This document shows, piece after piece, positions 27,548-47,705 of a stretch of 64,000 bases of DNA. Location: positions 62,001 through 126,000 of the IMG/VR virus record IMGVR_UViG_3300022188_000006; one strand, written 5' to 3'. The stretch's first letter is position 1. The number at the start of each line of letters is the position of its first letter. The stretch is from a virus. The notes beneath the pieces were generated by a model, which was not told the DNA's origin, ran no database searches, and saw nothing but the letters and a program-made list of their open reading frames with translations. The position numbers and the translations under genes are program-made.

Positions 27548-27561
27548 CGTCATCTCCTTTC

Positions 27562-27960: not shown

Positions 27961-27988
27961 AGTATATCCCTCCGAGCAGAGCATTCAA
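27961..27988 (-). promoter_or_regulatory. Putative sigma70-type promoter
   Basis: TTGAAT and TATACT are separated by 16 bp on the minus strand, in a gap of about 80 bp. The -35 overlaps the stop end of the membrane protein gene. It would drive the two small genes down to the terminator at 27257-27294 and, by read-through, portal and capsid. Confidence 0.6.
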
Positions 27989-28398: not shown

Positions 28399-28408
28399 AG
28401 CAACCTCC

Positions 28409-28516
28409 TCACATGCGCAGCCCTTTCTCGGCCAGGCGTCTAACGACTTCCTCTTTGGGAATTGGCTGCTTCACTTTCACCTTCAAGACCCTACGTTCCT
28501 GTTTTTTCTCTGCCAT
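28409..28516 (-). CDS. 35-residue small protein
   Basis: ATG 28516 follows GGAGGG at correct spacing; the frame gives a 35-residue, strongly basic peptide containing KKQERRVLKVKVKQPIPKEE and a terminal MR-rich helix, and stops 10 bp before the membrane protein. The spacing and ribosome-binding site support a real gene. Unknown function. Confidence 0.6.
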   Translation of the reverse strand: MAEKKQERRVLKVKVKQPIPKEEVVRRLAEKGLRM

Positions 28517-28527
28517 ACAGCACCCTC

Positions 28528-29496: not shown

Positions 29497-29508
29497 GGTT
29501 TCTTCCTA

Positions 29509-32466: not shown

Positions 32467-32472
32467 CCGCGA

Positions 32473-32874
32473 CTACCTCACGCTGCAATACAGAGAAGCT
32501 GTCCCTGTAAATGGCGGTGTTCCGGCTCCCCTGCAAGAGACCCTTATTCTGTCCTCGGACTCTCCGAGCTGGACGGGTATTCTGAACGTGCCGCTCTGAG
32601 TGAATCTGAAGATAAACGTCTCCGTAGTACCATCATTGTCGCTAATGGTGTCAGCGAAAAACAGATTGCTGGGCGAAGTGTCATCAAAAACAGGGCTGTA
32701 CTCTACGAGAACCTGGAGTTCGTCCTCGTTTCCTTTTGTATAGTCGATGTAGACGAACGCTTGGATAACAGCAGGTGTCAAAGCTACCCTGGAATTATCC
32801 GAAAAGGTTGTCGTCAGGTTCGTGATGTCGAAGGTCTGGTCGTAATTCTCCCCCCAGTTGCTTTTTCCAGCCAT
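32473..32874 (-). CDS. Small beta-rich structural protein
   Basis: 133 residues; a sequence of strands with DELQVLVEYSPVFDD and TETFIFRFTQSGTFRIPV and a Cys-containing C-terminus. It lies between the propeller gene and the long collagen-like fibre. A fibre-hinge or decoration role is inferred from position; no family recognised. Confidence 0.65.
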   Translation of the reverse strand: MAGKSNWGENYDQTFDITNLTTTFSDNSRVALTPAVIQAFVYIDYTKGNEDELQVLVEYSPVFDDTSPSNLFFADTISDNDGTTETFIFRFTQSGTFRIPVQLGESEDRIRVSCRGAGTPPFTGTASLYCSVR

Positions 32875-32883
32875 GTTTGCTTC

Positions 32884-34068
32884 CTACAGTCTGCCGAGAC
32901 GATAAAGCGCCTCCGTGACATCCGCATACATCCAGGGTATCGAAAAGTATCCACAAGTATAGTTACCCGAACTATCACGACCGCTGACTAGCAGCTTGAC
33001 ATCAGCCTCGTCACCGGCACCAGAGAACCTATTTTCGAAGTCGACAACGGCCGACGGAGTATAGCACCTTTGCTCGCGCCACGTGCCGCTTACGCGACCA
33101 AACAGCGGCCCTTGAATCGTCAGCTTTGCCCAATCGAGTCCGTCATCCGAAACAGCCACTCCAATGCCCTCGTGTAGTGCGCCGGCTCCTCCGGAATAGA
33201 ACATCATCCACTTTCCGAGAGTAGTCCGGAACACACTACAAGCACCTACGTAGCTGGAATCCCACGGAACAGGATTGCCCCAGACGGTACTGCCATGGTC
33301 CAGTACCTTGTTATACAAAGAAAAGGTAACACCATCAGGGCTATAACCGAGTCCAATGGACTCAAAAGCACCGGTGGTGCCATCAAAGAACAGGACGTAG
33401 CTGTAGTCGTAGGGATTGCTACCGGAATTGCTAGCACCACTGTTGTAGATCACCGCGCAGGGACCATAGGAGCCGCGGTTCCAATCCGGATGTGTTCCTG
33501 TGACAATCGGAACAGCACCGTTTTGCAGCGGCTGATCATTACTCCAGTTAAGCAGGTCAGACGACTCAGCGGTCCTGATAGCCTGCACAGAGTATAACTG
33601 CGACGTGTCCCAGTAATAGATTCGGAAAGAAGAAGCTCCCGTTTGGACGACCTGGGAATGGTGTGCACCGGACGGCAAGCCGACAACAGGGTTACCGCCA
33701 TTCAGGCGTGTCCACGTCGTGAAGTCGTTACTACCGGAAATAATGATGCCTCCACCGGCGTCCACGTCCGAAGAATGTAGACACACGTATTTGTAAGCAG
33801 TCCCGGCGATGTCGAAGCCATCAGCGAAGTACAGAAGAGTCGGATAATATGCCCTGTCAACCGGAGGGTCGAGCACAGGATTCTGATCGTATTCTTCTGG
33901 CAAGGCTAGGACCTTCCCGCCACCAGTAACATCCCAAACGCGCTGAAACCCGCCTTGTATGCTGTCACGGAGACGCTCCATCTCGGCTACCCAGGGCGTC
34001 AAACGGCGCTGACCTCGGTTAAGCTGGATCTCCTGTGATCCTCTGTGGTAGAATTGCTGCTGCGTCAT
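32884..34068 (-). CDS. Beta-propeller protein, glycosidase-like (GH43/GH32 type)
   Basis: The 394-residue protein opens with a ~45-residue virion-attachment-like helix (VAEMERLRDSIQGGFQRVWD). A propeller follows whose blades carry recurring S-x-D-x-x-x-W turns (SNDFTTW, SSDLLNW, SPDGVTF, SDDGLDW), with YPTLLYFADGF, ASSFRIYYWDT and GKWMMFYSGGAG as blade strands. This is the pattern of five-bladed glycoside hydrolase or lectin-like propellers. Catalytic acids cannot be assigned by eye. A virion enzyme or receptor-binding lectin are both possible. Confidence 0.78.
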   Translation of the reverse strand: MTQQQFYHRGSQEIQLNRGQRRLTPWVAEMERLRDSIQGGFQRVWDVTGGGKVLALPEEYDQNPVLDPPVDRAYYPTLLYFADGFDIAGTAYKYVCLHSSDVDAGGGIIISGSNDFTTWTRLNGGNPVVGLPSGAHHSQVVQTGASSFRIYYWDTSQLYSVQAIRTAESSDLLNWSNDQPLQNGAVPIVTGTHPDWNRGSYGPCAVIYNSGASNSGSNPYDYSYVLFFDGTTGAFESIGLGYSPDGVTFSLYNKVLDHGSTVWGNPVPWDSSYVGACSVFRTTLGKWMMFYSGGAGALHEGIGVAVSDDGLDWAKLTIQGPLFGRVSGTWREQRCYTPSAVVDFENRFSGAGDEADVKLLVSGRDSSGNYTCGYFSIPWMYADVTEALYRLGRL

Positions 34069-34391
34069 CCGACCACCCCCTCAAAAATGGCAGCGTAAGC
34101 GGCATCCTCTGCGTCCAGCTTCGTCCGCAACCGATCACGCGGAGAGAAAAGGAACTGCTGCCCCCGGGCCACCTCTGCAAATAGGTATGTGTTATTTACG
34201 GACCTGTGCACCTTTTCCAGCACTTCTCCCGCTGGCGCCTTCAGGTCGATTCCATCCATCCAATCCTCGTCAGCGCGTCCTCGCAGCAATACCGCCTTTC
34301 CGTCCTTGACAGCCCATTCCTGGACGATCACACAATCCCGTGTGCGCGGGTTTTGCTCGTAGACGGTCATGACAACATTACCAGCGGCCAC
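34065..34391 (-). CDS. Small uncharacterised protein after the kinase-like gene
   Basis: 108 residues, overlapping the kinase-like gene by 14 bp and the propeller gene by 4 bp, so the three are translationally coupled. The centre (AEVARGQQFLFSPRDRLRTK) resembles phage tail-fibre neck pieces only faintly. Function not recognised. Confidence 0.65.
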   Translation of the reverse strand: MAAGNVVMTVYEQNPRTRDCVIVQEWAVKDGKAVLLRGRADEDWMDGIDLKAPAGEVLEKVHRSVNNTYLFAEVARGQQFLFSPRDRLRTKLDAEDAAYAAIFEGVVG

Positions 34392-35208
34392 CTAGTTTCC
34401 TCCATGTCCGCATTTTCTTGAGTTCCGAGTGACGCTTGAGAACCCCGTCTAGCTCACGGTCGCCCATTCGTGCCTCAGTCATTGCTTCCGCAACAGCCTC
34501 TAAGTCGGCCTTCTCCAGTATCTGCCGGACATCCTCGGTTATTTCTTTGCCGACGAGTCTCCGCCCAATCACAGAAAGCATATGCGTCCTGTCATCGCCG
34601 GAGGTAAAGGCGTAACCGTTGTCTATAGCGTAAATCCGCTTCTGCGGATCCACGAGCAGATTGCTTGCATGTCGGTCAATCTGTCCGCAGATAAAGTCGA
34701 ATGCAGCACAACGATGAAACCAGGGATTTTCTGGATGCTGCCGATAATCGTATCGCCCCGACCGGCGTAACTCACTCAACAATGGCAACCTGACCCACGC
34801 CATCATAGAACCGGAACCTTCATTGTCTAGCGTTCTGCCGACAACAGGGGGGACCAGGTCGAACCCATATATCCGGTCCAGCTTATACACCAGAAGCTCT
34901 CGCTCCGAAGGGCTCACCTTCGGATCCATTGCCGACAAGTACCGCCCGGTCTCATATCTAAACTCGTGCTTCTTAAATACAGCCTGTGTACAGTCGATAA
35001 AACCCTTGCGGAACGAAGTTTTCAATCTAACTCTCAAGGGACGATGGATCCCCTTGCCGATGGGCTCAGAGTACAGCTCTTCCGCCTGGGTTAGCACCAG
35101 ACAACATTTGGCGTGGTCCAGATCGTCCAGACCCTTATCAAGATCAGCCGGCGCGAAGCCGGCCGACCTCCGCATACCGGAGAGTAGCCCACCAGTCAGC
35201 GCGTTCAT
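34378..35208 (-). CDS. FAM20/PI3K-like kinase fold protein 1
   Basis: The 276-residue protein has kinase-type motifs: a candidate nucleotide-binding Lys (VFKKHEFRYE, ~79-80), then SERELLVYKLDRIYGFDLVP (~101-120, the pattern of HipA/FAM20/PI3K-like kinases), the catalytic loop DRHASNLLVD (Asp179, Asn183) and the metal-binding IYAIDNGYAF (Asp196). All residues needed for phosphotransfer look present. The substrate (protein, lipid or sugar) is unknown. It is encoded among fibre genes, so virion packaging is possible. Its relative is at 45822-47705. Confidence 0.72.
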   Translation of the reverse strand: MNALTGGLLSGMRRSAGFAPADLDKGLDDLDHAKCCLVLTQAEELYSEPIGKGIHRPLRVRLKTSFRKGFIDCTQAVFKKHEFRYETGRYLSAMDPKVSPSERELLVYKLDRIYGFDLVPPVVGRTLDNEGSGSMMAWVRLPLLSELRRSGRYDYRQHPENPWFHRCAAFDFICGQIDRHASNLLVDPQKRIYAIDNGYAFTSGDDRTHMLSVIGRRLVGKEITEDVRQILEKADLEAVAEAMTEARMGDRELDGVLKRHSELKKMRTWRKLGGRW

Positions 35209-35244
35209 GCGGTTTCCAGAGATGCCGCTACACAGCAGCCGGCG

Positions 35245-35700
35245 TCATTCGACTTTGAACGTGTGCGTGTGGCCGTCTGCCTCCTCAACGAGGCCGACCA
35301 CCTTCACGTCATGCGTGTGGCCGTCGACACTGTCGGTCTTACCGTAAATGACACGCATATCTTTATCCACGAGGGCTACCACCCTGTGGCAGTGTCGGAC
35401 CCCGTCTACACCGGCGTCCTGCGTAGTAATCGCCTCGATTTTTCGTTGCCCCGCTTGCTCACGAGCAAACGGCATACTGCCCGTGGTGCATGTGTTGTCC
35501 GGCGTGCCCGGACAGTCCACTTCGTTTTCGGCTGCAGCACCTATCCGCAGTCCTTCCCCGTAGGCATTATACCTCTTGAAGAAGAGAAGCCCAGAGTCGA
35601 CAGCCACCAGCTCCCAACTAGCCCGACCTAGCTTCTCCAGCGTCGCAGTCAGGTCTCCACATTCAGACAAACTGACCGTGTAGTAGTCCCATCCAGGCAT
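35245..35700 (-). CDS. DUF4177-like protein with His-rich tail
   Basis: The 151-residue protein has an N-terminal ~45 residues like DUF4177 (WDYYTVSLSECGDLTATLEK, then ASWELVAVDSG and LFFKRY). The C-terminal part carries HCHRVVALVD, DGHTHDVKVV and DGHTHTFKVE, a metal-binding-looking pattern. DGHTH repeats occur in phage structural proteins and may hold Zn or Fe. Role unknown. Confidence 0.65.
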   Translation of the reverse strand: MPGWDYYTVSLSECGDLTATLEKLGRASWELVAVDSGLLFFKRYNAYGEGLRIGAAAENEVDCPGTPDNTCTTGSMPFAREQAGQRKIEAITTQDAGVDGVRHCHRVVALVDKDMRVIYGKTDSVDGHTHDVKVVGLVEEADGHTHTFKVE

Positions 35701-35733
35701 CGCTGCAACCCCCGTTAGATGCTTGAGGTCAGG

Positions 35734-35755
35734 CTGACCGGCCGAAACCGGTCAG
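35734..35755 (-). promoter_or_regulatory. Hairpin without U-tract after 35770-36114
   Basis: CTGACCGG and CCGGTCAG form a perfect 8-bp stem with a 6-nt loop in the gap between two genes. Flanking GTCAG repeats add weaker pairing. No T-run follows on the minus strand, so a processing or stability role is more likely than termination. Confidence 0.5.
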
Positions 35756-35769
35756 CACTGACCGAATCC

Positions 35770-36114
35770 TCAGACGCGAGTCGGGCGCGCCCAAGCTCCG
35801 AATTGTCCCGGCGCAACACCGACCTGACCACCGCTCCTGGCCACGGAACTGACCACCTTCGGACCGTAGGCGGTCTCGCCACGTTCCACAGCGATCACCT
35901 TGCGAGCGTCCGCGTTGTTGCCCTGGCGAGCCAGATCGGCCATCTTGTCGGCCTCCGCAGGCGGCACACCGGCAGGGCCAGCATTCGGGATATTCGAATC
36001 CACAGGCGGCTGATCGGCGGGCTTTGTCACCATCTTGCTGATTTCCCCGCGCGCTTTACGCGCCTTCGAAACGGCGCCAGTTCCACCACGAGCAATTGTC
36101 GCCTTACCCATCAT
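35770..36114 (-). CDS. Small basic, proline-rich protein
   Basis: 114 residues; ATG after AAGGAGG. Low-complexity (Gly/Ala/Pro/Lys) and probably disordered, with GQVGVAPGQFGAWARPTRV at the end. It overlaps the YkgJ-like gene by 4 bp. No family recognised. Confidence 0.6.
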   Translation of the reverse strand: MMGKATIARGGTGAVSKARKARGEISKMVTKPADQPPVDSNIPNAGPAGVPPAEADKMADLARQGNNADARKVIAVERGETAYGPKVVSSVARSGGQVGVAPGQFGAWARPTRV

Positions 36115-36455
36115 TCATCCTCCTTGCTTGACTTGACCCCTTCAAACCTGAAACCAGGACAATTTGGGGTCGGAGAGTCTGGAAATCCTCTACAAATCTG
36201 CGGCCTGTCCTCGTAGATGGTACAAACCGCTTCTCCGTTTTCCCACTTCAGAGCGGAACACCTCGCTTCGAAAATAACTTCTGCTTCCCGCTCGTTGATC
36301 TGTTTGACCGAGACACCTTCGTGCAGGGCCGCCCAGCGTAGAAAATCTTGGGCTGCTGCCATCTCTAAGTCAGTCGTGGCACCCTCCATTCCAAACTTCA
36401 GGACCACCTTCTTGCAACAGTTGCCACACCGCAAGCACTCACCGGTTCTTTCCAT
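36111..36455 (-). CDS. YkgJ-family cysteine-cluster protein
   Basis: 114 residues. The N-terminal CLRCGNCCKK and the later CSALKWENGEAVCTIYEDRP-QICRGFP match the YkgJ family consensus (CxxCxxCC ... C ... RPxxCRxFP), which binds a metal such as zinc or iron. The C-terminal end has PNCPGF. Phage copies are occasional and of unknown role. It is translationally coupled to both neighbours. Confidence 0.85.
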   Translation of the reverse strand: MERTGECLRCGNCCKKVVLKFGMEGATTDLEMAAAQDFLRWAALHEGVSVKQINEREAEVIFEARCSALKWENGEAVCTIYEDRPQICRGFPDSPTPNCPGFRFEGVKSSKEDE

Positions 36456-37216
36456 TACACCACCATCGGAGACACATGCTCGGTCTCCCCGCCGGGCGTG
36501 GCCATCTCGGGAAACCGAATGATAATCGAGCTGTCCTTAACAATGTATGGATAAGGGGTCTCCTTGTCCTTCACCGGGTACGGACCCTTCCCATCGAGTT
36601 CAAGCGCGAGGACCCGCTCCTCTTCTGAGAACGGCTCGCTTTTCCGCACCATTACACCGTGCGGATAGCCGTTCTTTGTCACAAGGCACTTGCATGTGTA
36701 GCACTTAGTAACCTTGCCCTGCGGGAAAATGTCGACGACGGCACCATGGACTCCGAGCGGAACCCAGTTTAGCACTTGGACTCTATCGCCCACACGTAGG
36801 GTCCGCGGTCGCACAAAAGCAGGGGGCTCTTCCGGAACCTCACGCTCAACCCAGAGCTTGTTGGTCTTCCTAGAAATGATCTCCCCATCTTTGGCGAGAG
36901 CACGAGCCAAAGCTTTTCTGAATTTCTCAGATTCGAGTAGTTCAACCGGATAGCCAGCCTTTTCAAGGGCCGCCGCCATGATCTGACGCGCCTTCTCTTT
37001 CAGCGCGCCTTCGGTCACGGGCTGGTCTTGCGCCGACCCCTTTTGCTCCGACGCCTGATCGTCCTGCTGGTCTTCGTCCTGTTCCTGCACGTCCTTCAGG
37101 ATCGGGAACAACGGTTTGTTGAGCTTCGCAGAAAACGTCAGACCCTTACGAATCTCGGCGCCGTGCTCAATCTGACTGCTGGAAGTCCATGTTTCTCGGT
37201 CGTGGATCTCATTCAT
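36455..37216 (-). CDS. Uncharacterised protein with KOW-like middle
   Basis: The 253-residue protein has an acidic, Gln-rich linker (residues ~40-70), a helical segment (KEKARQIMAAALEKAGYPVE), and a C-terminal domain with GDRVQVLNWVPLGVHGAVVD, reminiscent of KOW/SH3-type small barrels, followed by CYTCKC. A nucleic-acid or metal-binding role is conceivable. It is not identified. Confidence 0.6.
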   Translation of the reverse strand: MNEIHDRETWTSSSQIEHGAEIRKGLTFSAKLNKPLFPILKDVQEQDEDQQDDQASEQKGSAQDQPVTEGALKEKARQIMAAALEKAGYPVELLESEKFRKALARALAKDGEIISRKTNKLWVEREVPEEPPAFVRPRTLRVGDRVQVLNWVPLGVHGAVVDIFPQGKVTKCYTCKCLVTKNGYPHGVMVRKSEPFSEEERVLALELDGKGPYPVKDKETPYPYIVKDSSIIIRFPEMATPGGETEHVSPMVV

Positions 37217-37225
37217 TTTATACTC

Positions 37226-37933
37226 CTACGCGAGAAGATCGTCGAGGGCTTTCTCGAAATCTTCTAGGCACTTGCCCACGAGGCACTCACCTCTGCCACC
37301 TTGCCCAAGTCCCGAACCATCCATCCGACCGCCACCCGGACCCATACCACGACGACCTTGCAGCAACCTGGGAGGCAGGTTTCCGGATGCCGCTTCGGTT
37401 TCGCTCTCGCTCGTAGTGGTAGTCTCTTCCTCTTCTTGGTTCGTCAGCCCCTGGAAAGGATGCAAGGCGCCACCAGCAGCCATATCTGCAGTGTCCATTT
37501 TCGTCACGCCGACCACCGACAGAACACCTGGCGCAGCCCAAACAATTCGCTCGCTCCCTGGCAACAGCCGCTGGACGTCTACCCGGACAGCCATGTTATC
37601 GGAGGCGTCGATACTGTCGACCTGCAACCCGCGTTCGATGCACCACTCCTTGACCTTGGATGAGTTGGCGAACCGCTTTCTGCTGAACCACAAACTGCCA
37701 AGTTCGAAATCCGGCACCGACTTCTGGTAGCGCGTCTCATTGAGCATACCAGTCCATCGGTCATCGCTCAGCTCGGCCGCCCTTATCGCCTTAAAAGGAT
37801 TGTCGCAGTACAGGCACTTGTGCTTTGCTCCCACAATCCTCGGGCGCCAAGCTAAAATAGAATCGACGCAGCAACCGCGCACATCCTGTACGGCTTCAAT
37901 GCCGATGCGGCCATCCAGATCCAAGCCAGCCAT
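37226..37933 (-). CDS. Uncharacterised protein, first gene after promoter at 38065
   Basis: 235 residues. ATG 37933 is preferred (GGGAGG 7 nt upstream); an in-frame ATG at 37948 lies inside that ribosome-binding site. The N-terminal domain includes CLYCDNPFKA and a YQKSVPDFELGSLWFSRKR segment, then a Ser/Thr/Glu linker and a Gly-rich C-terminus ending in an acidic helix. No family recognised. Confidence 0.6.
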   Translation of the reverse strand: MAGLDLDGRIGIEAVQDVRGCCVDSILAWRPRIVGAKHKCLYCDNPFKAIRAAELSDDRWTGMLNETRYQKSVPDFELGSLWFSRKRFANSSKVKEWCIERGLQVDSIDASDNMAVRVDVQRLLPGSERIVWAAPGVLSVVGVTKMDTADMAAGGALHPFQGLTNQEEEETTTTSESETEAASGNLPPRLLQGRRGMGPGGGRMDGSGLGQGGRGECLVGKCLEDFEKALDDLLA

Positions 37934-38064
37934 GGTCTTGCCTCCCATGAAGTTGCTTGCAGGACGCGGCCATTCGCTCTATGCCGGCACCCGAAGCAGA
38001 CTTGTGTATCCCGCGCACATCGCGGTAGCAAAAGAGTCACAGCAGTATATGCTGCTACAATCCT

Positions 38065-38093
38065 AGTTTATCCCCTTTTTGATAGTGAGTCAA
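38065..38093 (-). promoter_or_regulatory. Sigma70-type promoter of the second late operon
   Basis: TTGACT and TAAACT are 17 bp apart on the minus strand, 11 bp after the terminase stop. The 155-bp gap that follows has no gene and contains a small AGCAG/CTGCT palindrome (38041-38056). The promoter is oriented to serve the genes down to 27305. Confidence 0.75.
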
Positions 38094-38103
38094 GCCTTTC
38101 GCA

Positions 38104-39987
38104 CTACACAACGATGACGTTCTGAACGTACTTCGCCGAATCAAAAGGGTTCACAACGAAATCAGGAACGTCTACAGCAACCTCGTTCAGACCATCTTCA
38201 TCGAACTTCCTAGCCATCGCGCGCCGTTGTTTCTCTGCCTTTTTTGCTTCGAGCAACCGCGTTTGCACCTCAGCAGCGGACGCCTTCTCGATGTCTGGAC
38301 CAAATTCGTCCTCGAAACGGAAATTCATCATGAGACACATGAGCGCGTCTGGTCCGTGATCCTTCTTCTTTAGGATGGCACCGGTAGTCTCGGACCTACG
38401 GTAAGCCTTCAGTTGCTCGATTAGTATTTCCAGTGCCTTGTTTATGCGTATGCGCCTGAACACGAAGTACTTCGAAACATTTTCAATGCCTATCTTCTTC
38501 CATGTCCCGAAATTTATCGGCCGCACATCAAAACCAGCGCTAGAGAGTTCCGCGTTGTTGAATGGGTGAGACGAGTCTGCCAATACGGGGAACTCGCCAA
38601 ACAGTGTCTTCCAATCGCGCAACTTTGTAGCTACATCGGAGACCAGCACGTGGTCTGTAAACTCAGCCTCATGGATATAAACACATTCCCTCGTGCGTAT
38701 CCCCAGGATCATCACCATGCTTCCCTGAGACTGAATACCCCAGTCGATACCAACCGCCGCCCTATCCACCGCACTGTCGATAAGGATAGGATCAGTAAGA
38801 GAAGCCTCAATCAGCTCAGGTGCATAGACGCAAGACGAATACGACGGGCGTTCGCAGGCAAACTCGGTCTCAAAGACGGTCGTCCCGGCATTCATCTCCT
38901 TAGCTTCTGACACCATTTTGAAGGTGGCCCAGCCGTCACTGTGGCGCGCCTTTCCGTAACACCCCTTAAATACCTCTGTCTTCTTACCATCGGGACCATC
39001 CACCAAAACCCTGTCCGTCAAATAGCACCTCTTGCAGTACTCAAGAGCTTCCGGATCATCCTCCGTCGCCTCTTCGAGACCCCTCGTGCATCGTTCCATA
39101 GTATCAAACACGTTCCAGTTGTACCGCTGAAATCCCTTCTCCCTGTAACCATCCCAATACTCTTGGAACAGGCCGTGCGGTATATGGAACGTAGAAAACA
39201 AGCACACAATTGAATCCGGCTCTGACAGCGCGCCCTGCAAAGCAGCCCGCATCGCCTTTTCGACTCTGCGGTCCTCCTGGCAAACCTCGTCCACAAAAAT
39301 TGTCCCAAAGTGCTTGCCGCGTCCTTGTTTCTCCGTCGCCGGCACACACTTCAAGAGAACACCTGTCACCAACCGGGTGACATCAGAAAGCGGATCGCCG
39401 AGCAGGAGACCGTCACGCAACCCGGGCACAGCATCCCAGAACATCTTCACGTAGTCATAAACAACTTTCGACTGTTCCCCCGAACCTGCCACATCCAGTA
39501 TTTCCCGCTTCCAGTAGATGAGGAGCAACCAGATCAGCACAGCAGCCGAAAGAGATCCACCGCCACCACGCGGCTTCCAAGTGATCGTCTTTCGAACTCG
39601 ACCAAAAAACACGTCGCCGACCCATTTGATGATCGGCGGAATGAGCTTCACATAGGTCTTTTTGCCGTCCTTAATTACGTATAAGGTTTCCCCGACAAAT
39701 GATGCAAGCCTTTCGTGTTGCCGCTTTATGTATGCTTCTTCACTTTCTTCGTATCCCAAGGGCTCGCGAACCCAGCCGTCTGTCACGTGCCAGCCTTTTT
39801 CGGCAGCCGTAACGGCGCTCATCTCTGGATCATAGACACCCTGCTTGAAGCCACGGGGAAACAGCAGATCAGGCAAACCGTAAGCACCCGGATATCCCCT
39901 TGCGAGACGATCCCTGATCTCTCGCTCAAGCAGCAGAAGCTGTCGTAGCTTCTCCTCTTTGCTTTGGCTCGCCTTACGTTTTTTCAC
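38104..39987 (-). CDS. Terminase large subunit
   Basis: The 627-residue protein has a deviant Walker A-like segment (WKPRGGGGSLSAA), a Walker B (FGTIFVDEVC) and coupling motif (VCLFSTF). The C-terminal RNase H-type nuclease has Asp in VGIDWG, ADSSHPFNN and KKKDHGPDAL. It packages DNA through the portal. Starts with GTG at 39987; the hairpin at 39999-40022 lies just upstream. The lysine lies before the Gly loop, as in lambda gpA, instead of at the end. Confidence 0.92.
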   Translation of the reverse strand: MKKRKASQSKEEKLRQLLLLEREIRDRLARGYPGAYGLPDLLFPRGFKQGVYDPEMSAVTAAEKGWHVTDGWVREPLGYEESEEAYIKRQHERLASFVGETLYVIKDGKKTYVKLIPPIIKWVGDVFFGRVRKTITWKPRGGGGSLSAAVLIWLLLIYWKREILDVAGSGEQSKVVYDYVKMFWDAVPGLRDGLLLGDPLSDVTRLVTGVLLKCVPATEKQGRGKHFGTIFVDEVCQEDRRVEKAMRAALQGALSEPDSIVCLFSTFHIPHGLFQEYWDGYREKGFQRYNWNVFDTMERCTRGLEEATEDDPEALEYCKRCYLTDRVLVDGPDGKKTEVFKGCYGKARHSDGWATFKMVSEAKEMNAGTTVFETEFACERPSYSSCVYAPELIEASLTDPILIDSAVDRAAVGIDWGIQSQGSMVMILGIRTRECVYIHEAEFTDHVLVSDVATKLRDWKTLFGEFPVLADSSHPFNNAELSSAGFDVRPINFGTWKKIGIENVSKYFVFRRIRINKALEILIEQLKAYRRSETTGAILKKKDHGPDALMCLMMNFRFEDEFGPDIEKASAAEVQTRLLEAKKAEKQRRAMARKFDEDGLNEVAVDVPDFVVNPFDSAKYVQNVIVV

Positions 39988-39998
39988 TGTAACACCGT

Positions 39999-40022
39999 GG
40001 GGCCGCCGTTGCCGACGGCCCC
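39999..40022 (-). promoter_or_regulatory. GNRA-loop hairpin before the terminase start
   Basis: In the transcript GGGGCCGUCG and CGGCGGCCCC pair over 10 positions (one G-U) and close a GCAA tetraloop, only about 11 nt before the terminase GTG. No U-tract. It may limit terminase translation or stabilise the message of the upstream gene. Confidence 0.6.
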
Positions 40023-40035
40023 GATCGTCTTCTTT

Positions 40036-40980
40036 CTAGCCCTTCTTGCGGCCTCGCGCAGCCATCTGCTGGAAGCGCTTCTTCCCGTACTTGGCACGAC
40101 CGAGACTGGCAGCCAAGGCAGCAGGGTTCTTCACGTCGCCACGCCGCCGCAGCTTGTCCTCCAAAGCCTCGAACCGGGCGCCTTCACCGGGAGGAGCTTT
40201 TGCCGAAGGCTCGCTCTTTCCGCCCTTCAGCGAACCGGGCTTGACCTTCCGTCCCTTACGGGTCTTCTCGATCTCGAAACCTGGGACCGACTCGTTCTCC
40301 TCGCAGAGGCTGTGCAGGATCTCATCCAGGGACTTCCCCGCGGCCGCCATCTCTTGGAACCGCTTCTTGCCCCACTTTTTCCGGCCGATCCAAGCAGCCA
40401 CGGCCTTCGGGTTCTTCACCCCGGGCTTCCCGCGAAGCTCCTCAACAAGCTCATCGAACCGCTTGCCACTGCCAAGCTTCGGCTTTTTCTTTTCCACCTT
40501 ACCGTTCAGCGACTTGATCAGATCGTCCTCAGAAAACTCGACAGAAAAGCCGGCTTTGTTGACCCGAATATCCCGCAAACCCTGGGCAAACAGACCGATT
40601 GCCATGATCGCCTTGTGCGCAGCCTTCTCGCACTCAAGAATGAGCGAACGGACGCGATCAGCATCGCTGTCCAGCTCGTTCACGCTGTCACGGAGACGCT
40701 TGCCAACAAGCTCGGCCTGCCGACGAGTCCGGTCCATCTTCACGCCGGGAAGGGTTTCTGCCAGGTCGACGGCCTGGTCGACGAGGCCTGCACAGGCCAG
40801 CACCTTTGCTGCAGCACCGCGCCAGTCTCCCTTTCCGCGAAGCCCCTTGGCCATGTCCACGGCACTTAGAGCCTCCTCAACCATTGTCAGGAGCATCTCC
40901 TTCCTGGTCTTGTTCTTGCTCACCTTGGCGAGGCTCCCAAGAAAGCCCTTCTCAAGGTTCTCGCTCATTTCGTTTCTCAT
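40036..40980 (-). CDS. Protein with two copies of a head-associated KYGKKRF motif
   Basis: 314 residues; ATG 40980 fits AGGAG better than the ATG two codons earlier. The N-terminal ~165 residues are helical. Two 42-residue units follow: ~174-215 (VKNPKAVAAWIGRKKWGKKR) and ~269-310 (VKNPAALAASLGRAKYGKKR). The motif is widespread in phage proteins of unknown function encoded near capsid genes and may bind nucleic acid. The gene precedes the terminase. Confidence 0.75.
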   Translation of the reverse strand: MRNEMSENLEKGFLGSLAKVSKNKTRKEMLLTMVEEALSAVDMAKGLRGKGDWRGAAAKVLACAGLVDQAVDLAETLPGVKMDRTRRQAELVGKRLRDSVNELDSDADRVRSLILECEKAAHKAIMAIGLFAQGLRDIRVNKAGFSVEFSEDDLIKSLNGKVEKKKPKLGSGKRFDELVEELRGKPGVKNPKAVAAWIGRKKWGKKRFQEMAAAGKSLDEILHSLCEENESVPGFEIEKTRKGRKVKPGSLKGGKSEPSAKAPPGEGARFEALEDKLRRRGDVKNPAALAASLGRAKYGKKRFQQMAARGRKKG

Positions 40981-41013
40981 CGTCATTCTCCTAGCTCTAA
41001 TGAAACATGGACC

Positions 41014-41376
41014 TTACTCGTCCGTGCCTTCCTTGTCTGCGTCCTCTCCCTGTTCACCTTCCTGCTCGGAATCACCGGCAGTCCCTTCTGGACCTTCGTT
41101 GTCCACAGCGTCATCTGCCTTGTCAGCCCCCGCAGCAGGCTCCGTAGCAGCAGCTTTCTCGGTCTTCACCAGTTCCATGCTGATCTTGCAACCAGCACAG
41201 ACCAGCTTGCCGTCTTTCGCCTCCATAGCTTCACCACACCTCGGACATGTCGCATTCTCCATTCGATTCTCCTTTTTCTTTCCGACAGCAGCACTTATAG
41301 CCCTTGTCACGGCATTAAGACCGCCGTCGAACTGACCAATACCAACAGCACCGCTAGTATCTATTGCCTTTTTCAC
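41014..41376 (-). CDS. Zinc-ribbon protein with acidic tail
   Basis: Up to 120 residues from a GTG at 41376. An internal ATG at 41262 has a better ribosome-binding site (AAAGGAG) and would give 82 residues, so the first ~38 residues are uncertain. A zinc ribbon (CPRCGEAMEAKDGKLVCAGC) is followed by a low-complexity acidic tail (Glu/Ala/Asp). Unknown role. Confidence 0.65.
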   Translation of the reverse strand: MKKAIDTSGAVGIGQFDGGLNAVTRAISAAVGKKKENRMENATCPRCGEAMEAKDGKLVCAGCKISMELVKTEKAAATEPAAGADKADDAVDNEGPEGTAGDSEQEGEQGEDADKEGTDE

Positions 41377-41650
41377 GCAACACCTTTCTGTTGAACCTTG
41401 CCAACTCCTTTACTACCCTGACGTTTACCGCTCTCGGCTTTGGCTCCCGAACTTTTTTCGGACTAGGATCTTTTCTCGGTTCCTTTGGCTTTGGCACAGG
41501 AACCGTCAGCTTTGGCTTACGAACCGGGACGTTTTGGTCTTGTGTTGCGGGAACAGGACCCTTCGCCCAATCGTTGCCTCCGGGGCCTGAGCTTGCATTC
41601 CTAGCCGCGTCCCTCGCTGGCCGTTTACCTCTTTCCGGATGCCTTGCCAT
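41354..41650 (-). CDS. Very basic Pro/Lys/Arg-rich protein
   Basis: 98 residues from ATG 41650, preferred over a GTG at 41701 without ribosome-binding site. The composition is extreme (repeats of PKPKEPRKD type) and disordered. It overlaps the 56-residue gene upstream. Such proteins may condense DNA in the head; this is an inference. Confidence 0.6.
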   Translation of the reverse strand: MARHPERGKRPARDAARNASSGPGGNDWAKGPVPATQDQNVPVRKPKLTVPVPKPKEPRKDPSPKKVREPKPRAVNVRVVKELARFNRKVLREKGNRY

Positions 41651-41795
41651 CCCTGATTTCTTTCGCTTCCTTCTTAGAAACAACACCGGTGCTCTCGGCA
41701 CCGCTGATTACAGCGCCACGAATCTTTGCGGCATTCCCAGAACGTAGGTGCAGCGACGCCAGATCTCGAAGAACCTCAGACACAATCTTGTTCAT
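41625..41795 (-). CDS. 56-residue small protein
   Basis: ATG 41795 overlaps the stop of the upstream gene (ATGA), and the frame runs to TAA at 41625. The peptide has a helix (NKIVSEVLRDLASLHLRSGN) and a basic tail (KKEAKEIRDGKASGKR). The coupling and coherent composition support it as a real gene, one easily missed for its size. Confidence 0.65.
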   Translation of the reverse strand: MNKIVSEVLRDLASLHLRSGNAAKIRGAVISGAESTGVVSKKEAKEIRDGKASGKR

Positions 41796-42412
41796 GCCTT
41801 CGCCTTCAGCATTAAGTCGCGTCTCTTAGCCAAGGATACCGAAATGTCGCCAAAAATCAACGAAACGCCGAGCCAGAATGTCTTCTCAGCGTCAGTAATC
41901 GTGACCGACGGACTGGCTCTCAGACCCCTACGGCCATACTTCACCGCAAACTTTTCCGCCTTGCAAACACGCTTGTTCAGATTTTTTGTCTCGGCACGCA
42001 TCTCTCTCCAGACACTAGGCTTGAATCGTTTGCAGTTGGGATCCCGCTCGATCCTATCAAGCAGAGCTTTTACCTCTGCGATCAGCACATCGCGTTCCTT
42101 GGCAAAATGTGCACTCTTGAAACCTCCGGCACCGCCCCGGCTCAACTCCGTCAACTTCTGCAGTCGCCGTTGCATCACGGCAAGTCTTCGCTTGGCAGCA
42201 GCTTTTACATGGTCGCCCCTCGGGGATTCCTCCTCTCCGCCTTTCTTGGAAGCTGTGTCTTTCTTGGGTCCTCGATAGGGAACAATGTGTCCATTCGGAA
42301 GCTTAATGACCCGCTGTCCACCTTGCCGTGTCCAGATTTCTCCCACGCGCCGGCGGACCCATTTCTCCACCGCAATCTCTGCCAAATCTACAGCCCAGCT
42401 ATACTGTCTCAC
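41792..42412 (-). CDS. Basic helical protein of the head-gene block
   Basis: 206 residues; N-terminal DLAEIAVEKWVRRRVGEIW, a short NGHIVPYRGPKK strand turn (as in phage head-morphogenesis proteins) and long basic helices (KAAAKRRLAVMQRRLQKL). Coupled to both neighbours by 4-bp overlaps. Internal head or DNA-binding role is likely; family unknown. Confidence 0.65.
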   Translation of the reverse strand: MRQYSWAVDLAEIAVEKWVRRRVGEIWTRQGGQRVIKLPNGHIVPYRGPKKDTASKKGGEEESPRGDHVKAAAKRRLAVMQRRLQKLTELSRGGAGGFKSAHFAKERDVLIAEVKALLDRIERDPNCKRFKPSVWREMRAETKNLNKRVCKAEKFAVKYGRRGLRASPSVTITDAEKTFWLGVSLIFGDISVSLAKRRDLMLKAKA

Positions 42413-42954
42413 GACAGGATCCTCACCGTAACCATGAATGCCATCGGGCGCTTCCCGCGGCGCCTGAATGCTCGCCCCTGAATCACATACTTGTTACCTT
42501 GGCTAAATACTCCTTCGGCTTCCTCCTTGAAACCGTCTGACAAAAGCGCATCTCGCAGATCTGCGATTCTGCGACCAACATCCTCCTCTGCATCGCACAC
42601 GACCGTGATATGGTAGGTATCCCCTCTATGTGCAGAGGGGGAGAGCCGACAGCCGCCCCTCCAGCCGCCCATCTTCCGCGCGATTCTTGAGGCGAACCGT
42701 CTGATCCCGGCATCGCTTTCCTTCACCACACGCTCAATAGCAGCATTAAAGGCGAATAGTTCTTCGGTGGCCAAATCCTTCCCATAGTCATCGCAGTCTT
42801 CGCACTTTTTCACGACGCCCCAAGCCATTTTGTGGCACAAAGCGTCGTCTTTATGTCGCTCGTAGCAGCTGTTGAATACCTCCACCCACTGCCGCTGCTT
42901 CTTCTCGCTAAGGCCTCTTAGCTTGCTAGGTGGATTGTTCACGTCGTAAGGCAT
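42409..42954 (-). CDS. ChaB-like domain protein
   Basis: 181 residues from ATG 42954 (GGGAGG 7 nt upstream). The N-terminus (MPYDVNNPPSKLRGLSEKKQ, then WVEVFNSCYERHKDDALCHKMAW, quoted in part) has the ChaB layout: a short strand, then helices ending in a W-V-KK. The C-terminal half (DTYHITVVCDAEEDVGRRI) is a separate alpha/beta domain. ChaB was first named as a cation-transport regulator, but the function is unclear. Confidence 0.65.
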   Translation of the reverse strand: MPYDVNNPPSKLRGLSEKKQRQWVEVFNSCYERHKDDALCHKMAWGVVKKCEDCDDYGKDLATEELFAFNAAIERVVKESDAGIRRFASRIARKMGGWRGGCRLSPSAHRGDTYHITVVCDAEEDVGRRIADLRDALLSDGFKEEAEGVFSQGNKYVIQGRAFRRRGKRPMAFMVTVRILS

Positions 42955-43679
42955 GTTCCAGCCTCCCATTTCTTGAGGGTATCCTGACAAAACGCTGACA
43001 ACCCCTCTAGTGCTGATGCAATACCGTTCTCCCGCGAAATAGCGGCAACACCGTGTCCGCGAGCACGCAATTCTCCCTCCGCAGGCTTCCGCCCGATGAC
43101 ATTGCCCTTCGCATCCATAAGGTAGGTGACACCGTGTCTCGTGACCTGTGCAGCCACACGCGGCAACTTCGTCCGCGTAGGCTTTTTCTTGGGATGCTCG
43201 GGCTTTCTCTCCGGTTTCTTTTCTGGTTTCTTCTCTGACTTTGCACTCGGAGCAGGCAGATTAGCTCGCCGTTCGCGCCGCTCGAACTCCTCTTTTAGTC
43301 TCTCTGGAACTTTGATCCCGTACTTTCCGAAATCTCTCGGATATATTGGCTGCCAAGACCCACCGATCTTCATATGTGGCAATAGCCTCGCCCTCGGACC
43401 CGACCCGGTCCGATACCACTCGATTCGGCCCTCACTCGCGGGCTTCGGACGCTGGGTAGGACGGGCGCGGCCTTTCGGTTCCTCGTACACATATATCGGC
43501 TTCTTGCCGGGACGCTCGATCTTCCTCTTATATTTGTGTGGTCTCAGCCTCTGGGCAAATCCCATCACCCGGCTCACGAAACCGGCCTTCAGTAGTTCCT
43601 CGCCGACGCCGCGCGACTTCGATACGTCGAAGACGAAGTCACACAGGGCCAGCAACACATCGAATCGCGCGTCGTTCAT
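42939..43679 (-). CDS. Basic, linker-rich protein
   Basis: 246 residues. A Pro/Lys-rich central region (residues ~130-175, KKPEKKPERKPEHPKKKPTR) separates a basic N-terminal part (KYKRKIERPGKKPIYVYEEP) from a C-terminal domain (VTRHGVTYLMDAKGNVIGR). It overlaps both neighbours. Phage head proteins with the same PGKxPIYVYxEP turn exist, but I cannot name this one. Confidence 0.65.
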   Translation of the reverse strand: MNDARFDVLLALCDFVFDVSKSRGVGEELLKAGFVSRVMGFAQRLRPHKYKRKIERPGKKPIYVYEEPKGRARPTQRPKPASEGRIEWYRTGSGPRARLLPHMKIGGSWQPIYPRDFGKYGIKVPERLKEEFERRERRANLPAPSAKSEKKPEKKPERKPEHPKKKPTRTKLPRVAAQVTRHGVTYLMDAKGNVIGRKPAEGELRARGHGVAAISRENGIASALEGLSAFCQDTLKKWEAGTCLTT

Positions 43680-44518
43680 TTTCTTCTGCCGATAATCTGC
43701 GCGACACGCCGGACATCGCCCGGCGTATCAATCGAACCTGTCTCTTCAACCAGCTTCGCCAACTTCTTGAGGAAGTCTAGGTAATGATACCTTTCGAAGA
43801 GTTTGTAGCGCACGTTCTCCGGAAGAAGGTTCGGCGAGGGGTACTTTTTCAGTCCTCTCCGCGCTAGCTCTAGCTCACGCTTGAACGCTTCAAGCCTGTC
43901 GCGGTGGATGTCAGACATCTCTGCCGCCATTTCCTGCACAGCGGCATCGAGGTCCTTGATCCGCCTACGCAACTTCGCCGCAACCTCAGCACTATTCGAT
44001 ACCGAGAGAACATCCGCCAGTCGCTCAATATCGATCAGGCTGCGCCACGCCTCAGCCTTATCAGCATCAATTTGCCGAACATCACGTTTCCACTGATCAT
44101 AAACATCCAGCAGACTCACGCCGATATCGGGACTTGTCTTCAGCCACTTCTTTCGCATCAAGTCGTAAACAGCGTCGTACTTGTCGAGGTCGGCACTTTC
44201 TAGGACGAAAAAGTTGATTGGATGCTGCGTCCCGGGAGCAAGCTTACCGCTAAGCCGTGTTGCATTCTCGACAAGTGCCAGCAAGGTCTCTGGATCGACG
44301 TCCACCACAATGGACACATCAATGTCCGACTCAGGATTATATCTGAGTCCGGTAATACTCCCGACCAGGTAAGCAGCGCGAGGCTTCACACCAAGCAGGA
44401 GTTTGCGTGCCTGCTGTCGAATCGCCCCCGCGATCTCCGGTCTGAGTACGTACCTGTCCCCGCGCTTGTACCAAACAAGCGGGTCCAGTCCCGGCATCTT
44501 TTCATCTAATATGCTCAC
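43676..44518 (-). CDS. Nucleotidyltransferase-fold protein
   Basis: The 280-residue protein has the Pol beta-type signature GSITGLRYNPESDIDVSI (Gly53-Ser54, Asp65, Asp67). It is followed by strands (VVDVDPETLLALVENA) and a helical C-terminal domain. The third acidic residue is not obvious. It could be a minimal nucleotidyltransferase acting on protein, RNA or small molecules, as in MNT-type or AadA-type enzymes. Starts with GTG overlapping the upstream stop. Confidence 0.8.
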   Translation of the reverse strand: MSILDEKMPGLDPLVWYKRGDRYVLRPEIAGAIRQQARKLLLGVKPRAAYLVGSITGLRYNPESDIDVSIVVDVDPETLLALVENATRLSGKLAPGTQHPINFFVLESADLDKYDAVYDLMRKKWLKTSPDIGVSLLDVYDQWKRDVRQIDADKAEAWRSLIDIERLADVLSVSNSAEVAAKLRRRIKDLDAAVQEMAAEMSDIHRDRLEAFKRELELARRGLKKYPSPNLLPENVRYKLFERYHYLDFLKKLAKLVEETGSIDTPGDVRRVAQIIGRRK

Positions 44519-44799
44519 GTCTGGGCCTTCGCTTTCTTTTCTTCTTCGAGGACTGACTCCATGACAAGGAGCGCAGAATAGTAATCCGGATACTCAGCCA
44601 AGTGATCCAACGCAATCTGAGTGGCCACGTCTCGCCTGTCCGTGTGCTCCATCTCGATCTCGATACCGATGGCCAGCTGAACCGGGTCGACATCTTGCTC
44701 GGTAACGCCCTTCTTTGCCGCCATCCCGTTTAGCAGTGGCCTAGTGTCTCCTCTGCTCGACGCCCTCTGTTCTACCGCCTTTTGGATTTTGTCAAACAT
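44515..44799 (-). CDS. DUF5661-like small protein
   Basis: 94 residues; the core VDPVQLAIGIEIEMEHTDRR and IALDHLAEYPDYYSALLVME is a clear match to a small phage/mobile-element family (DUF5661). Function unknown. Coupled to the nucleotidyltransferase start. Confidence 0.8.
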   Translation of the reverse strand: MFDKIQKAVEQRASSRGDTRPLLNGMAAKKGVTEQDVDPVQLAIGIEIEMEHTDRRDVATQIALDHLAEYPDYYSALLVMESVLEEEKKAKAQT

Positions 44800-44811
44800 T
44801 TTGCTTTCCTG

Positions 44812-45339
44812 TCAGTTGCGCCCAAGCGGATGCTGTGCCATGTCCAGCAGATCCGGACTGTCCTCTCCTACCAAGTCGTCCAACAATCGTTTCTTCAGTG
44901 CTGTTAGTTCTTCCAAGGACGCACGCTCAAGATCTACTCCCTCTATGATGTGCCTGGTCGTCGTCTGTGTTACAGCCTTGGGAACAACGCCAGCCTCCAT
45001 AAGAAGACTGGTTCGACGATGCAGGGCCGAAAGGGCCTTGTCCAAAAACGCAGCTCGCTGATTGGCACTCGAAGCCAGCGAATACTCCGACATGGCGCAC
45101 CGGTAAATCTCATCGTATTTTTGACAGGCTTCGGCGACCTCGGCAGGTGGCTCAGCGTTCGATGTCTTCTCTGCTTCCTCTGCCTTCCACTGCTTGATCC
45201 AGTTTTCCACGGTCTGCTCTGTGCAACCTACAGCCTCGGCTATGTCGCTCTTGCGTGCACCCCTGATGTAGAGACGGATCACGCGATCCTTTAGCCGCTC
45301 CCTTTCCTGCTTTGACATAGGGCCACGTCGTCTAGCCAT
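44812..45339 (-). CDS. Small-terminase-like HTH protein
   Basis: 175 residues. A helix-turn-helix occupies residues ~14-50 (RVIRLYIRGARKSDIAEAVG, then CTEQTVENWIKQW), followed by helices (ANQRAAFLDKALSALHRRTSL, partly quoted) that could oligomerise. This is the layout of small terminase subunits, and the gene is in the same operon as the large subunit. A transcription factor is the alternative. Confidence 0.65.
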   Translation of the reverse strand: MARRRGPMSKQERERLKDRVIRLYIRGARKSDIAEAVGCTEQTVENWIKQWKAEEAEKTSNAEPPAEVAEACQKYDEIYRCAMSEYSLASSANQRAAFLDKALSALHRRTSLLMEAGVVPKAVTQTTTRHIIEGVDLERASLEELTALKKRLLDDLVGEDSPDLLDMAQHPLGRN

Positions 45340-45343
45340 ACCG

Positions 45344-45847
45344 CTATCCTGCCATTTGCAAGGTGTCGCCTACCTGCCGAATCCGGCCGGACTTAACAAG
45401 TACCTCCACCACCTCAGGAGCAACAGGATTTCTTTTACCATCAACACGCACAAGTACCGGTTGCGTCCCCATGGCCCTGTGCACCATTGTTATCCTGGCG
45501 TCATTTTGCAGAAAGAACATGAGATGGTTCGGATTCCTTATGATTCTTCCATCTGGATAGATCGGGGATCTGGCTGTCGATAGAGTCTTTGTCCTCGGCT
45601 CAAACAGCGTTTCCTTTGACTCAGGTTCTTTTCCTGCTACAGGTTCGCTTTTGCTTCCAAGAACACCGAGAACCTTGTCCAGCGCCTGCTCCACTGCACG
45701 CTCAGCCACTGCTATGTTTAGAGCAGGCGCAATTCTAGTCTTTTGCTCCGCAGGTCCTTTGTCCGCAATGACCGCGGTCCCGGCAGCACGAAGATTTTCT
45801 CCGTCCCAGACAAAATTCGTCTCATTCTGAACCCGGCGCATTGGCAT
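45344..45847 (-). CDS. Uncharacterised protein
   Basis: 167 residues if started at ATG 45847; two other in-frame starts (45880 and 45841) are possible and none has a strong ribosome-binding site. The C-terminal part (MFFLQNDARITMVHRAMGT) looks like a small alpha/beta domain. No family recognised. Confidence 0.55.
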   Translation of the reverse strand: MPMRRVQNETNFVWDGENLRAAGTAVIADKGPAEQKTRIAPALNIAVAERAVEQALDKVLGVLGSKSEPVAGKEPESKETLFEPRTKTLSTARSPIYPDGRIIRNPNHLMFFLQNDARITMVHRAMGTQPVLVRVDGKRNPVAPEVVEVLVKSGRIRQVGDTLQMAG

Positions 45848-47705
45848 TCGTCCGAGGAACAATTCTGACCATCGAACCACAAAAACTCAAGGGCAGATCC
45901 TGCACAAACTTCTCTGGGGTGTTCGTCGTAATTCGCTCGCCCAGGGGTCCCAGGTAACCGCCCATTACGTACTCCACAAGCGGATTTTCCTCGCCGCTGA
46001 GCACCACAACCTTGTCACCCTTTAGGGCGATCTCCCCGACAAGCTTTTGGTCTTTTCCAGCACCGGTGTAGACCTGCATAATCTCAGCGTTCTCAGACTT
46101 CAATATGAAGTCCTCTAGTTGGCGCAGAGCCATCGCAACAGTAGCCATCTCTGCCGCGTGTGGTTTCGGTTTAGGTGGCTTAGGTGTCTGGAGAGACCTT
46201 GCTCCCATGGCAAGCTCTACCATGTTCAACGTGCGAGGTAACCTGCCTTTCTCCTTTATTCGCCTAAGACGCGCAATGACACCGTTGGCTTCCTTACCTA
46301 GGCCCCATTTTTCCAAGGTTTTCTTTAGTTGTCCCTCGTCTACTTTTTGCAGCTGCGAGACGATCCGCTTGTCTATCTTCCCGCCGTTGTACTCATGGGA
46401 AAGCCAGTGAGGCACAGACGTAAAACCGTGAAAATCGCCTCGTTCATCACTGATCGGGAAGTTGAACCCATTGTCGATCGCGAATGCTTGCTTTCGGTCA
46501 GCACTGACCAAGTAATTCCCGAAGTGCCTGTCTGTGGCCCCTGTAAGGTAGTCAAAGACGGCCATTTTTTCCACGGAAAACCTGAAATCAGGATCGTTTT
46601 CGAAGTGCATCTGCGTCTTCGCCCGTGAAAAGTCACTCCCGCTCATAGCCCCTTCGACAAAATGCTGCCTAGAAGCAGAAGCCTCCGGATTCAGTGCAGC
46701 CTCTTGCAGTTCCTTCAAGGCTTCTTTTGAGAGCTTATTTTCCTTGTAAGCAGCCTGGAGTTCTGGGTGCATCAGAACCTGCTTGACAACCCTTGCTCTA
46801 TCCTCGGCCGCTACCTGCGTCTTTGTCTTTACTGTTGGCGGGACAATGCCGAAACCCAGCAACCTGTCCACCTCAAAAGCCGCCGCTTCGCGCGCCCCCA
46901 CCGACACTTTTTCGTTGAGAATACCACGCCGCATGAAACTAATCGGTGGACCAAGTCCATCCGGCTTTGTTACGCTCTTGCTGCCATCAGGTGCCTGATC
47001 GAAGTAAACCAGTGTTCGGCTGTCAATGCCTGCTTGCTCCCGTTTCACCGGGTCAGAGCGCAGAGCTTTTTCTACTTGCTCTAGGTGTCCTTCCCAAGGA
47101 GCTGACGAGAGTGCACCCTTCTTGTAAACAAAATCTCCCCATCCCGTCTCTTCGTCGTGCTTGGCCGGACCGGCCTCCCTCTCATCCAGCTTGTCGAGTT
47201 TTTCTGCTATCTCCCGCAATATGCCGTAAGCTTTCTGGATCTGCTCGGCATCCCCTTTCTTGAATCCATCACGCAAAAGCTGAGCAAACTCCTTCGCCCG
47301 TGTGCTAATCTGTTCCAGGACCTTCTTCTGATGCTCAGTAGTAGCCTTGGTTTTCATTTCGCGGAACCGCTCACCGAACTTCTTCATTAGTTCGGCAGAC
47401 TTCCGCTTCAGGTCCGGTGTTGCCTGCCTCGACGATCTCAACTGTCGGACAACGCTCTCGACCTCCTGGGCCAGCTTCGATGTCTTCGGGGACGGCCCTG
47501 CCACGGTCTCAGTCTTTGCGCCCTTGGGCGGCGTGTCCGAATACTCATAGGTACCATCGGGCAATTTACGCCGCCAGAGATGGCGCTTCCTGCCCGTGCG
47601 TCCCTCTGGGTCTGGGGGCTCCCAATCACCGACCTTCGCTTTCAATAGCAGGCTAAACTGCGTCAGCGATTCAACGATGGCTTCCCTGGAAAGATCCGCG
47701 ATCAC
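45822..47705 (-). CDS. FAM20/PI3K-like kinase fold protein 2, with basic N-terminal region
   Basis: The 627-residue protein starts with GTG at 47705. Residues ~1-75 include KLPDGTYEYSDTPP, a motif I have seen associated with phage head proteins. A coiled region follows to ~180. The kinase part has AREAAAFEVDRLLGFGIVPP (271-290), the catalytic loop DRHFGNYLV (Asp392, Asn397) and AIDNGFNFP (Asp411). These match the protein at 34378-35208. Catalytic residues are kept. Likely a virion or head-associated kinase; substrate unknown. Confidence 0.72.
   Translation of the reverse strand: MIADLSREAIVESLTQFSLLLKAKVGDWEPPDPEGRTGRKRHLWRRKLPDGTYEYSDTPPKGAKTETVAGPSPKTSKLAQEVESVVRQLRSSRQATPDLKRKSAELMKKFGERFREMKTKATTEHQKKVLEQISTRAKEFAQLLRDGFKKGDAEQIQKAYGILREIAEKLDKLDEREAGPAKHDEETGWGDFVYKKGALSSAPWEGHLEQVEKALRSDPVKREQAGIDSRTLVYFDQAPDGSKSVTKPDGLGPPISFMRRGILNEKVSVGAREAAAFEVDRLLGFGIVPPTVKTKTQVAAEDRARVVKQVLMHPELQAAYKENKLSKEALKELQEAALNPEASASRQHFVEGAMSGSDFSRAKTQMHFENDPDFRFSVEKMAVFDYLTGATDRHFGNYLVSADRKQAFAIDNGFNFPISDERGDFHGFTSVPHWLSHEYNGGKIDKRIVSQLQKVDEGQLKKTLEKWGLGKEANGVIARLRRIKEKGRLPRTLNMVELAMGARSLQTPKPPKPKPHAAEMATVAMALRQLEDFILKSENAEIMQVYTGAGKDQKLVGEIALKGDKVVVLSGEENPLVEYVMGGYLGPLGERITTNTPEKFVQDLPLSFCGSMVRIVPRTNANAPGSE

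Follow-up and report, generated by a model that had tools for sequence, protein, structure and literature searches.

Six predicted PI4K-II/FAM20-like kinases and a kinase-specific partner domain in a phage genome: candidate virion-linked effectors

The stretch of DNA analysed here (hereafter the window) covers 64,000 nucleotides, positions 62,001 to 126,000 of the 156,275-base virus record IMGVR_UViG_3300022188_000006 (G000), and encodes two kinase-like proteins, K5 and K6. Our analyses show that both carry a predicted kinase fold of the PI4K-II/FAM20 type with complete catalytic residues, and that they belong to a family of six catalytically competent-looking kinases (K1-K6) in the record. 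In addition, sequence profile comparisons show that a small partner domain accompanying most of these enzymes is kinase-specific. We consider it about an even chance (a probability of roughly 0.5) that K1-K6 act as effector kinases linked to the virion and that each has a binding partner of its own.

K5 (276 residues, positions 34378-35208, minus strand) and K6 (627 residues, 45822-47705, minus strand) were found where an initial annotation had placed them and with the motifs it had described. K6 consists of an N-terminal extension, a kinase domain at about residues 225-490 and a C-terminal partner domain. In K5, the beta3 lysine is Lys79 (34972-34974), the alphaC glutamate is E104 within the E-x3-Y...VPP stretch S-E-R-E-L-L-V-Y-K-L-D-R-I-Y-G-F-D-L-V-P-P (34846-34908), the catalytic loop is D178-R-H-x2-N183 (34660-34677, reading D-R-H-A-S-N) and the metal motif is A-I-D196-N-G (34615-34629), all on the minus strand. 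The corresponding elements of the K6 kinase domain are Lys247, Glu273, the stretch A-R-E-A-A-A-F-E-V-D-R-L-L-G-F-G-I-V-P-P, the loop D392-R-H-x2-N397 (46515-46532, minus strand, reading D-R-H-F-G-N) and the common A-I-D-N-G motif around D411 (46467-46481, minus strand). Catalytic residues are indeed retained in both proteins (Lys, Glu, D-x-H-x2-N and the metal Asp), as had been proposed, and the D-R-H...N loop is present in both, but with a spacing of two residues and not three. Similarly, the catalytic aspartate had been correctly numbered in K6 (Asp392), but that of K5 is Asp178, not Asp179. The two proteins are homologous (BLASTP E=5e-12, 25% identity over 224 aligned positions), and the Pfam model PF00454 (PI3_PI4_kinase) matches K6 above its cut-off of 27.1 bits (43.4 bits, 5e-11) and K5 at 25.9 bits, 1.2 bits short of it.

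The FAM20/PI3K-like fold suggested by the initial annotation was borne out by profile search, structure prediction and fold search. The AlphaFold2 model of K5, for which ten window and viral sequences served as input, reached a predicted local distance difference test score (pLDDT) of 86.8 and a predicted TM-score (pTM) of 0.85, and keeps a helical C-lobe; Foldseek searches of the PDB with this model returned PI4K-II alpha/beta as best matches (2.2e-7), together with FAM20C (4.7e-6). The query-normalised TM-scores of these matches were only 0.46-0.57, which points to a common fold and not to close kinship. The model of K6 (residues 181-627) was weaker (pLDDT 68.6, pTM 0.64); it likewise ranked PI4K-II and FAM20 first, with PI4KIIalpha at the top (7e-8). 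A profile of ten kinase cores matched FAM20 chains (1.4e-13) and PI4K-II chains (1.7e-13) about equally. The best NCBIfam model for K1-K6 was the SCO1664 family (TIGR03843), at 1e-10 to 1e-15 (K5 1.6e-12, K6 3.3e-10) and 39.8-54.4 bits, well below its cut-off of 172. In Pfam, neither HipA_C nor MuF matched K5 or K6, and the Fam20C model was not significant (K6 E=0.26, 11.4 bits against a cut-off of 26.8).

A search of the whole record with K6 and the family profiles identified six copies of the kinase and none beyond, in place of the two counted earlier. The remaining four lie outside the window in a tandem array at positions 26747-33777 of the record (6747-13777 of L007, minus strand), which contains four kinase genes (26747-28258, 28239-29798, 30235-31728 and 32314-33777, all on the minus strand) and three partner genes in the order K4, partner, partner, K3, partner, K2, K1. 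K1-K3 share 39-45% full-length identity with one another and about 28% with K4, while BLAST alignments of K5 and K6 with K1-K4 are confined to the kinase core. All six aligned kinases retain Lys79, Glu104, Asp178, His180, Asn183 and Asp196 (K5 numbering). The array comes after tail-fibre-like genes and two small genes that are holin-like by eye, for which no informative Pfam match was obtained. An RlaP-type RNA-repair nucleotidyltransferase (L007 379-1536; PF10127, 5e-23) is encoded a few kilobases from the array in the same virus.

A scan of viral contigs turned up relatives of these kinases in about 20 further contigs, some of them possibly near-copies of one virus, and K5-type proteins occur at 11 loci with 40-44% identity over most of their length. 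A predicted kinase fold and the D-H-N and D-N motifs, whose absence would have spoken against the initial annotation, were both found: each of the 25 kinase cores compared has the Lys, the catalytic Asp, the His, the Asn and the metal Asp, and 24 have the Glu. Because the cores had been selected by their D-H-N-D residues, the conservation of these four is partly circular, whereas Lys and Glu played no part in the selection. Matches to isolated phages are few, comprising haloarchaeal viruses (HCTV-6 gp16, HSTV-2 and others), the Myxococcus phage Mx1 and one faecal contig, as well as a weak match in a mycobacterial prophage. The genome scan returned only Actinomycetota proteins (those scanned being of the SCO1664 type) and a single Thorarchaeota-binned contig, which resembles the viral locus L013. 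A tblastn search of 50,697 phage records gave nothing for K5, K6, K3, the L011 and L013 kinases or the terminase large subunit (TerL), and scanning viral contigs with K6 or TerL as single queries also brought no result.

In the phylogenetic tree, which contains many long branches, K5 groups with its orthologues (support 100/100) and K1-K3 group together (100/98) with K4 beside them (92/81), while K6 remains unplaced. The six copies therefore trace back to two lineages or more, with tandem expansion in one; a recent duplication giving rise to K5 and K6 was rejected on the same tree. Two further proteins were recorded among the relatives: one of 904 residues (L045 5856-8570), in which nucleotidyltransferase-like and ligase-like parts appear by eye to be joined to a kinase, the only one of the three that Pfam reports, and an Mx1 'prohead protease' (L033 3-656) with a weak kinase-like match in its C-terminal part (PF00454, E=0.003).

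Most kinase genes are followed immediately on their 3' side by a gene for a small protein of 75-120 residues, with tight or overlapping junctions. The K5 partner (108 residues, 34065-34391, minus strand) is a separate, unfused protein with a 14-base overlap between its start and the K5 stop, occupying the same position as in K5 orthologues; its profile E-values of 4e-14 and 2.6e-13 were obtained with the protein itself in training. In K6, the partner domain is fused to the C-terminus (residues 538-614, 45864-46094, minus strand), with a whole-record E-value of 1.5e-21, also with itself in training. When partner profiles were tested by leaving out one group at a time, recovery was clear for L010 (2e-8), L012 (5.9e-8), the HAD tails (8e-8), the K3 partner (1.8e-6) and the K6 tail (1.1e-4), weak for L014 (0.011), L011 (0.056) and L046 (0.24), and failed for HCTV-6 gp17. 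The partner alignment, searched against ten virus records in full, located 16 places, all of them adjacent to or fused with a kinase, several of which (in G001, G002, G008 and G011) had been outside the alignment used. This kinase-only occurrence in the ten records rules out a generic small protein of the head region. In K5 orthologues, the partner forms the C-terminal part of a protein with an N-terminal HAD-type hydrolase (D-x-D-x-T and D-D motifs); elsewhere in the record of this phage, a search for HAD genes gave one sub-threshold match and none above cut-off. The partners tested had no significant PHROG or Pfam match, and the K5 partner and K6 C-terminus no Pfam match at all.

The link with the virion comes from relatives in which the kinase is fused to phage head proteins, suggesting that these kinases may be built into particles and delivered into the host. 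L046 encodes a protein that joins a minor head (MuF) region, above the Pfam cut-off, to a kinase and whose N-terminal part matches annotated minor head proteins of isolated phages; L012 shows the same architecture (phrog_115, minor head protein, 2.2e-11; Pfam MuF 26.9 bits, just under cut-off), and L014 appears by eye to be a third such fusion, for which Pfam reports no MuF. In the Mycobacterium prophage prophiFSQJ01-1, a single protein combines a VG15 minor-capsid domain (2.6e-36) with an ADP-ribosyltransferase domain (8e-16) and a stretch that resembles a kinase, matching the family profile at 6.6e-8. Among the viral models of BFVD matched by fold are annotated portal, Nudix and ADP-ribosyltransferase proteins. 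A regular-expression search for a shared N-terminal packaging motif gave no support for one, with 50 genes against 40.8 in shuffled sequences.

The genes surrounding K5 and K6 are those of a packaging and head block on the minus strand. After K6 come one gene without assigned identity, a terminase small subunit (TerS)-like helix-turn-helix protein (44812-45339; HTH_23 2.9e-10, Terminase_5 2e-4), a homologue of which lies just before TerL in L042, and a DUF5661 protein (44515-44799; PF18905, 1.2e-14), to which the C-terminal tail of one MuF-like head protein (L013 11917-13293) is homologous (BLASTP 1.6e-9). The same block encodes a Pol-beta-type nucleotidyltransferase-like protein (43676-44518; PF18765 E=1e-3 and PF01909 E=2e-3, both below cut-off). 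TerL itself (38104-39987; phrog_9, 3.1e-9) lies further on, between K6 and K5, and the portal protein (24931-26802; phrog_12, 4.9e-49) downstream of K5, an order of TerL, K5 and portal that recurs in L008, L038, L040 and L042. Kinase genes occupy comparable places in other viruses: two lie between the portal and a MuF-like protein in L013, the MuF-kinase gene of L012 overlaps the end of the portal gene, and HCTV-6 gp16 sits between head-completion and tail-completion genes. The packaging block also contains a CxxCxxCC zinc/iron-chelating domain protein (36111-36455; PF03692, 2.2e-10) and a ChaB-like domain (42409-42990; PF06150, 1.7e-5, just under cut-off), and collagen-like proteins with G-P-Q repeats are encoded at 30184-32466 and 29509-30183. 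The kinases had initially been placed among head and fibre genes; this holds for K5 and K6, but four of the six copies adjoin tail-fibre-like and holin-like genes instead. The earlier suggestion of a virion-carried enzyme or assembly regulator fits this gene neighbourhood and the minor-head-protein fusions of relatives.

As virion-linked effectors, the kinases would be made late in infection, built into or carried with the particle, and would enter the host together with the DNA, there to phosphorylate host proteins or, less probably, lipids or small molecules. The small partner would bind its own kinase; where it stands alone, it may suppress kinase activity or accompany the enzyme through assembly, and where it is fused to the HAD domain, as in K5 orthologues, it may tether a phosphatase to the kinase or to the kinase's product. 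Different paralogues would act on different targets. Both Pol-beta nucleotidyltransferase domains and kinases are listed among injected phage effectors (PMC5512222), and the Pol-beta-like gene in the kinase block counts in favour of this reading for that reason.

Several observations weigh against it. None of the six kinases of this phage is itself fused to a head protein, and in prophiFSQJ01-1 the catalytic loop of the kinase-like stretch is altered. The case for packaging is weakest for K1-K4, since their neighbours are tail-fibre- and holin-like genes and not head genes; K1 and K2, moreover, have no adjacent partner. The K5 partner is weak when held out (E=0.021), and the HAD matches lie below Pfam cut-offs.

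A rather unlikely alternative is that the kinases phosphorylate the head, tail or fibre proteins of the phage itself during morphogenesis, the HAD-partner fusion reversing the mark. FAM20C acts on secreted matrix proteins, and CotH on spore coat proteins. The late structural gene context would agree with such a role, as would the position of K5 a short way before long collagen-like fibre genes, which its L034 and L035 orthologues share, and that of K1-K4 after tail-fibre-like genes. However, the kinase domain occurs in viruses with unrelated structural neighbours, Ser and Thr are scarce in this phage's collagen-like repeats, most of which are G-P-Q, and the presence of a kinase-like version in a minor capsid protein that also bears an ADP-ribosyltransferase points to delivery over assembly.

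Less probable still is a toxin-immunity or HipA-like growth-control pair, in which the kinase would be the toxin, the small 3' gene its immunity or antitoxin, and the copies a polymorphic set for use in conflicts between phages or of phage with host. The order of kinase and small gene with tight or overlapping junctions, the tandem, diverging copies and weak HipA-family matches in relatives and K4 are compatible with this scenario, although the gene order is the reverse of that of HipBA, the partner forms one chain with its kinase in K6 and with a HAD hydrolase in K5 orthologues, and none of the partners tested matches a PHROG or Pfam family significantly. Also in favour of this scenario, polymorphic MuF toxins are known in phages, in a paper that makes no mention of a kinase (PMC5576092). 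Lipid or small-molecule kinases acting on a host membrane or metabolite are very unlikely, for although PI4K-II is among the closest folds and profiles and homologues from haloarchaeal viruses carry the annotation phosphatidylinositol kinase, FAM20 (protein and sugar kinases) matches equally, paralogue diversity is better suited to protein targets, and no membrane-binding feature turned up, no search having been aimed at such features.

The phage kinases can be compared with several known families. FAM20 proteins, which belong to the secretory pathway of animals, share the fold, the D-R-H loop and the E-x3-F-x-L-D-R-x-L-x-F...P-P stretch, but their Pfam model does not reach significance. PI4K type II, the top PDB match, has similar N-T-D-R...N and A-I-D-N-G-L-A-F-P motifs but D-R-G-N-D-N in place of D-R-H-x2-N, and a different gene context. 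The SCO1664 family, actinobacterial and without assigned function, has the A-I-D-N motif in common with the phage kinases, whereas its loci are chromosomal, lack a partner gene and carry D-R-K-x-G-H. HCTV-6/HSTV-2 gp16 and the Mx1 'kinase' share the kinase core and lie in head-tail gene blocks of isolated viruses, although their N-terminal regions differ; HCTV-6 gp17 is a possible partner, not significant when held out. MuF-type effector or toxin fusions are paralleled by L012 and L046 but not by K5 and K6 themselves. Phage-delivered effector domains including kinases are already known from polyvalent proteins that phages presumably inject (Iyer et al. 2017, PMC5512222), but that kinase group is different: it has lost the whole C-terminal lobe, and an insert separates its phosphotransfer His from the Asp, whereas the K5 model keeps a helical C-lobe with Asp and His two residues apart (D-x-H). 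No paper was found on the kinase family, its partner or the MuF fusions, in a search that left subscription journals mostly outside, nor any on HSTV-2 virion proteins or phage PI-kinases.

A broader proposal, tentative and on balance doubtful, is that of a phage-specific phosphorylation module in which a virion-delivered PI4K-II/FAM20-like kinase family, duplicated to six copies and served by a dedicated docking partner (alone, kinase-fused or fused to a HAD phosphatase), would reversibly reprogramme several host targets as infection begins. The effectors known to be injected by phages and to modify host proteins are for the most part ADP-ribosyltransferases, acetyltransferases and the T7-type kinase. 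If the virion-linked effector reading is true, a partner-coupled kinase family of the PI4K-II/FAM20 type, joined to head proteins in several phages, would add a new class of chemistry to early phage takeover, and the 'kinase' and 'phosphatidylinositol kinase' annotations found in phage head operons would become testable.

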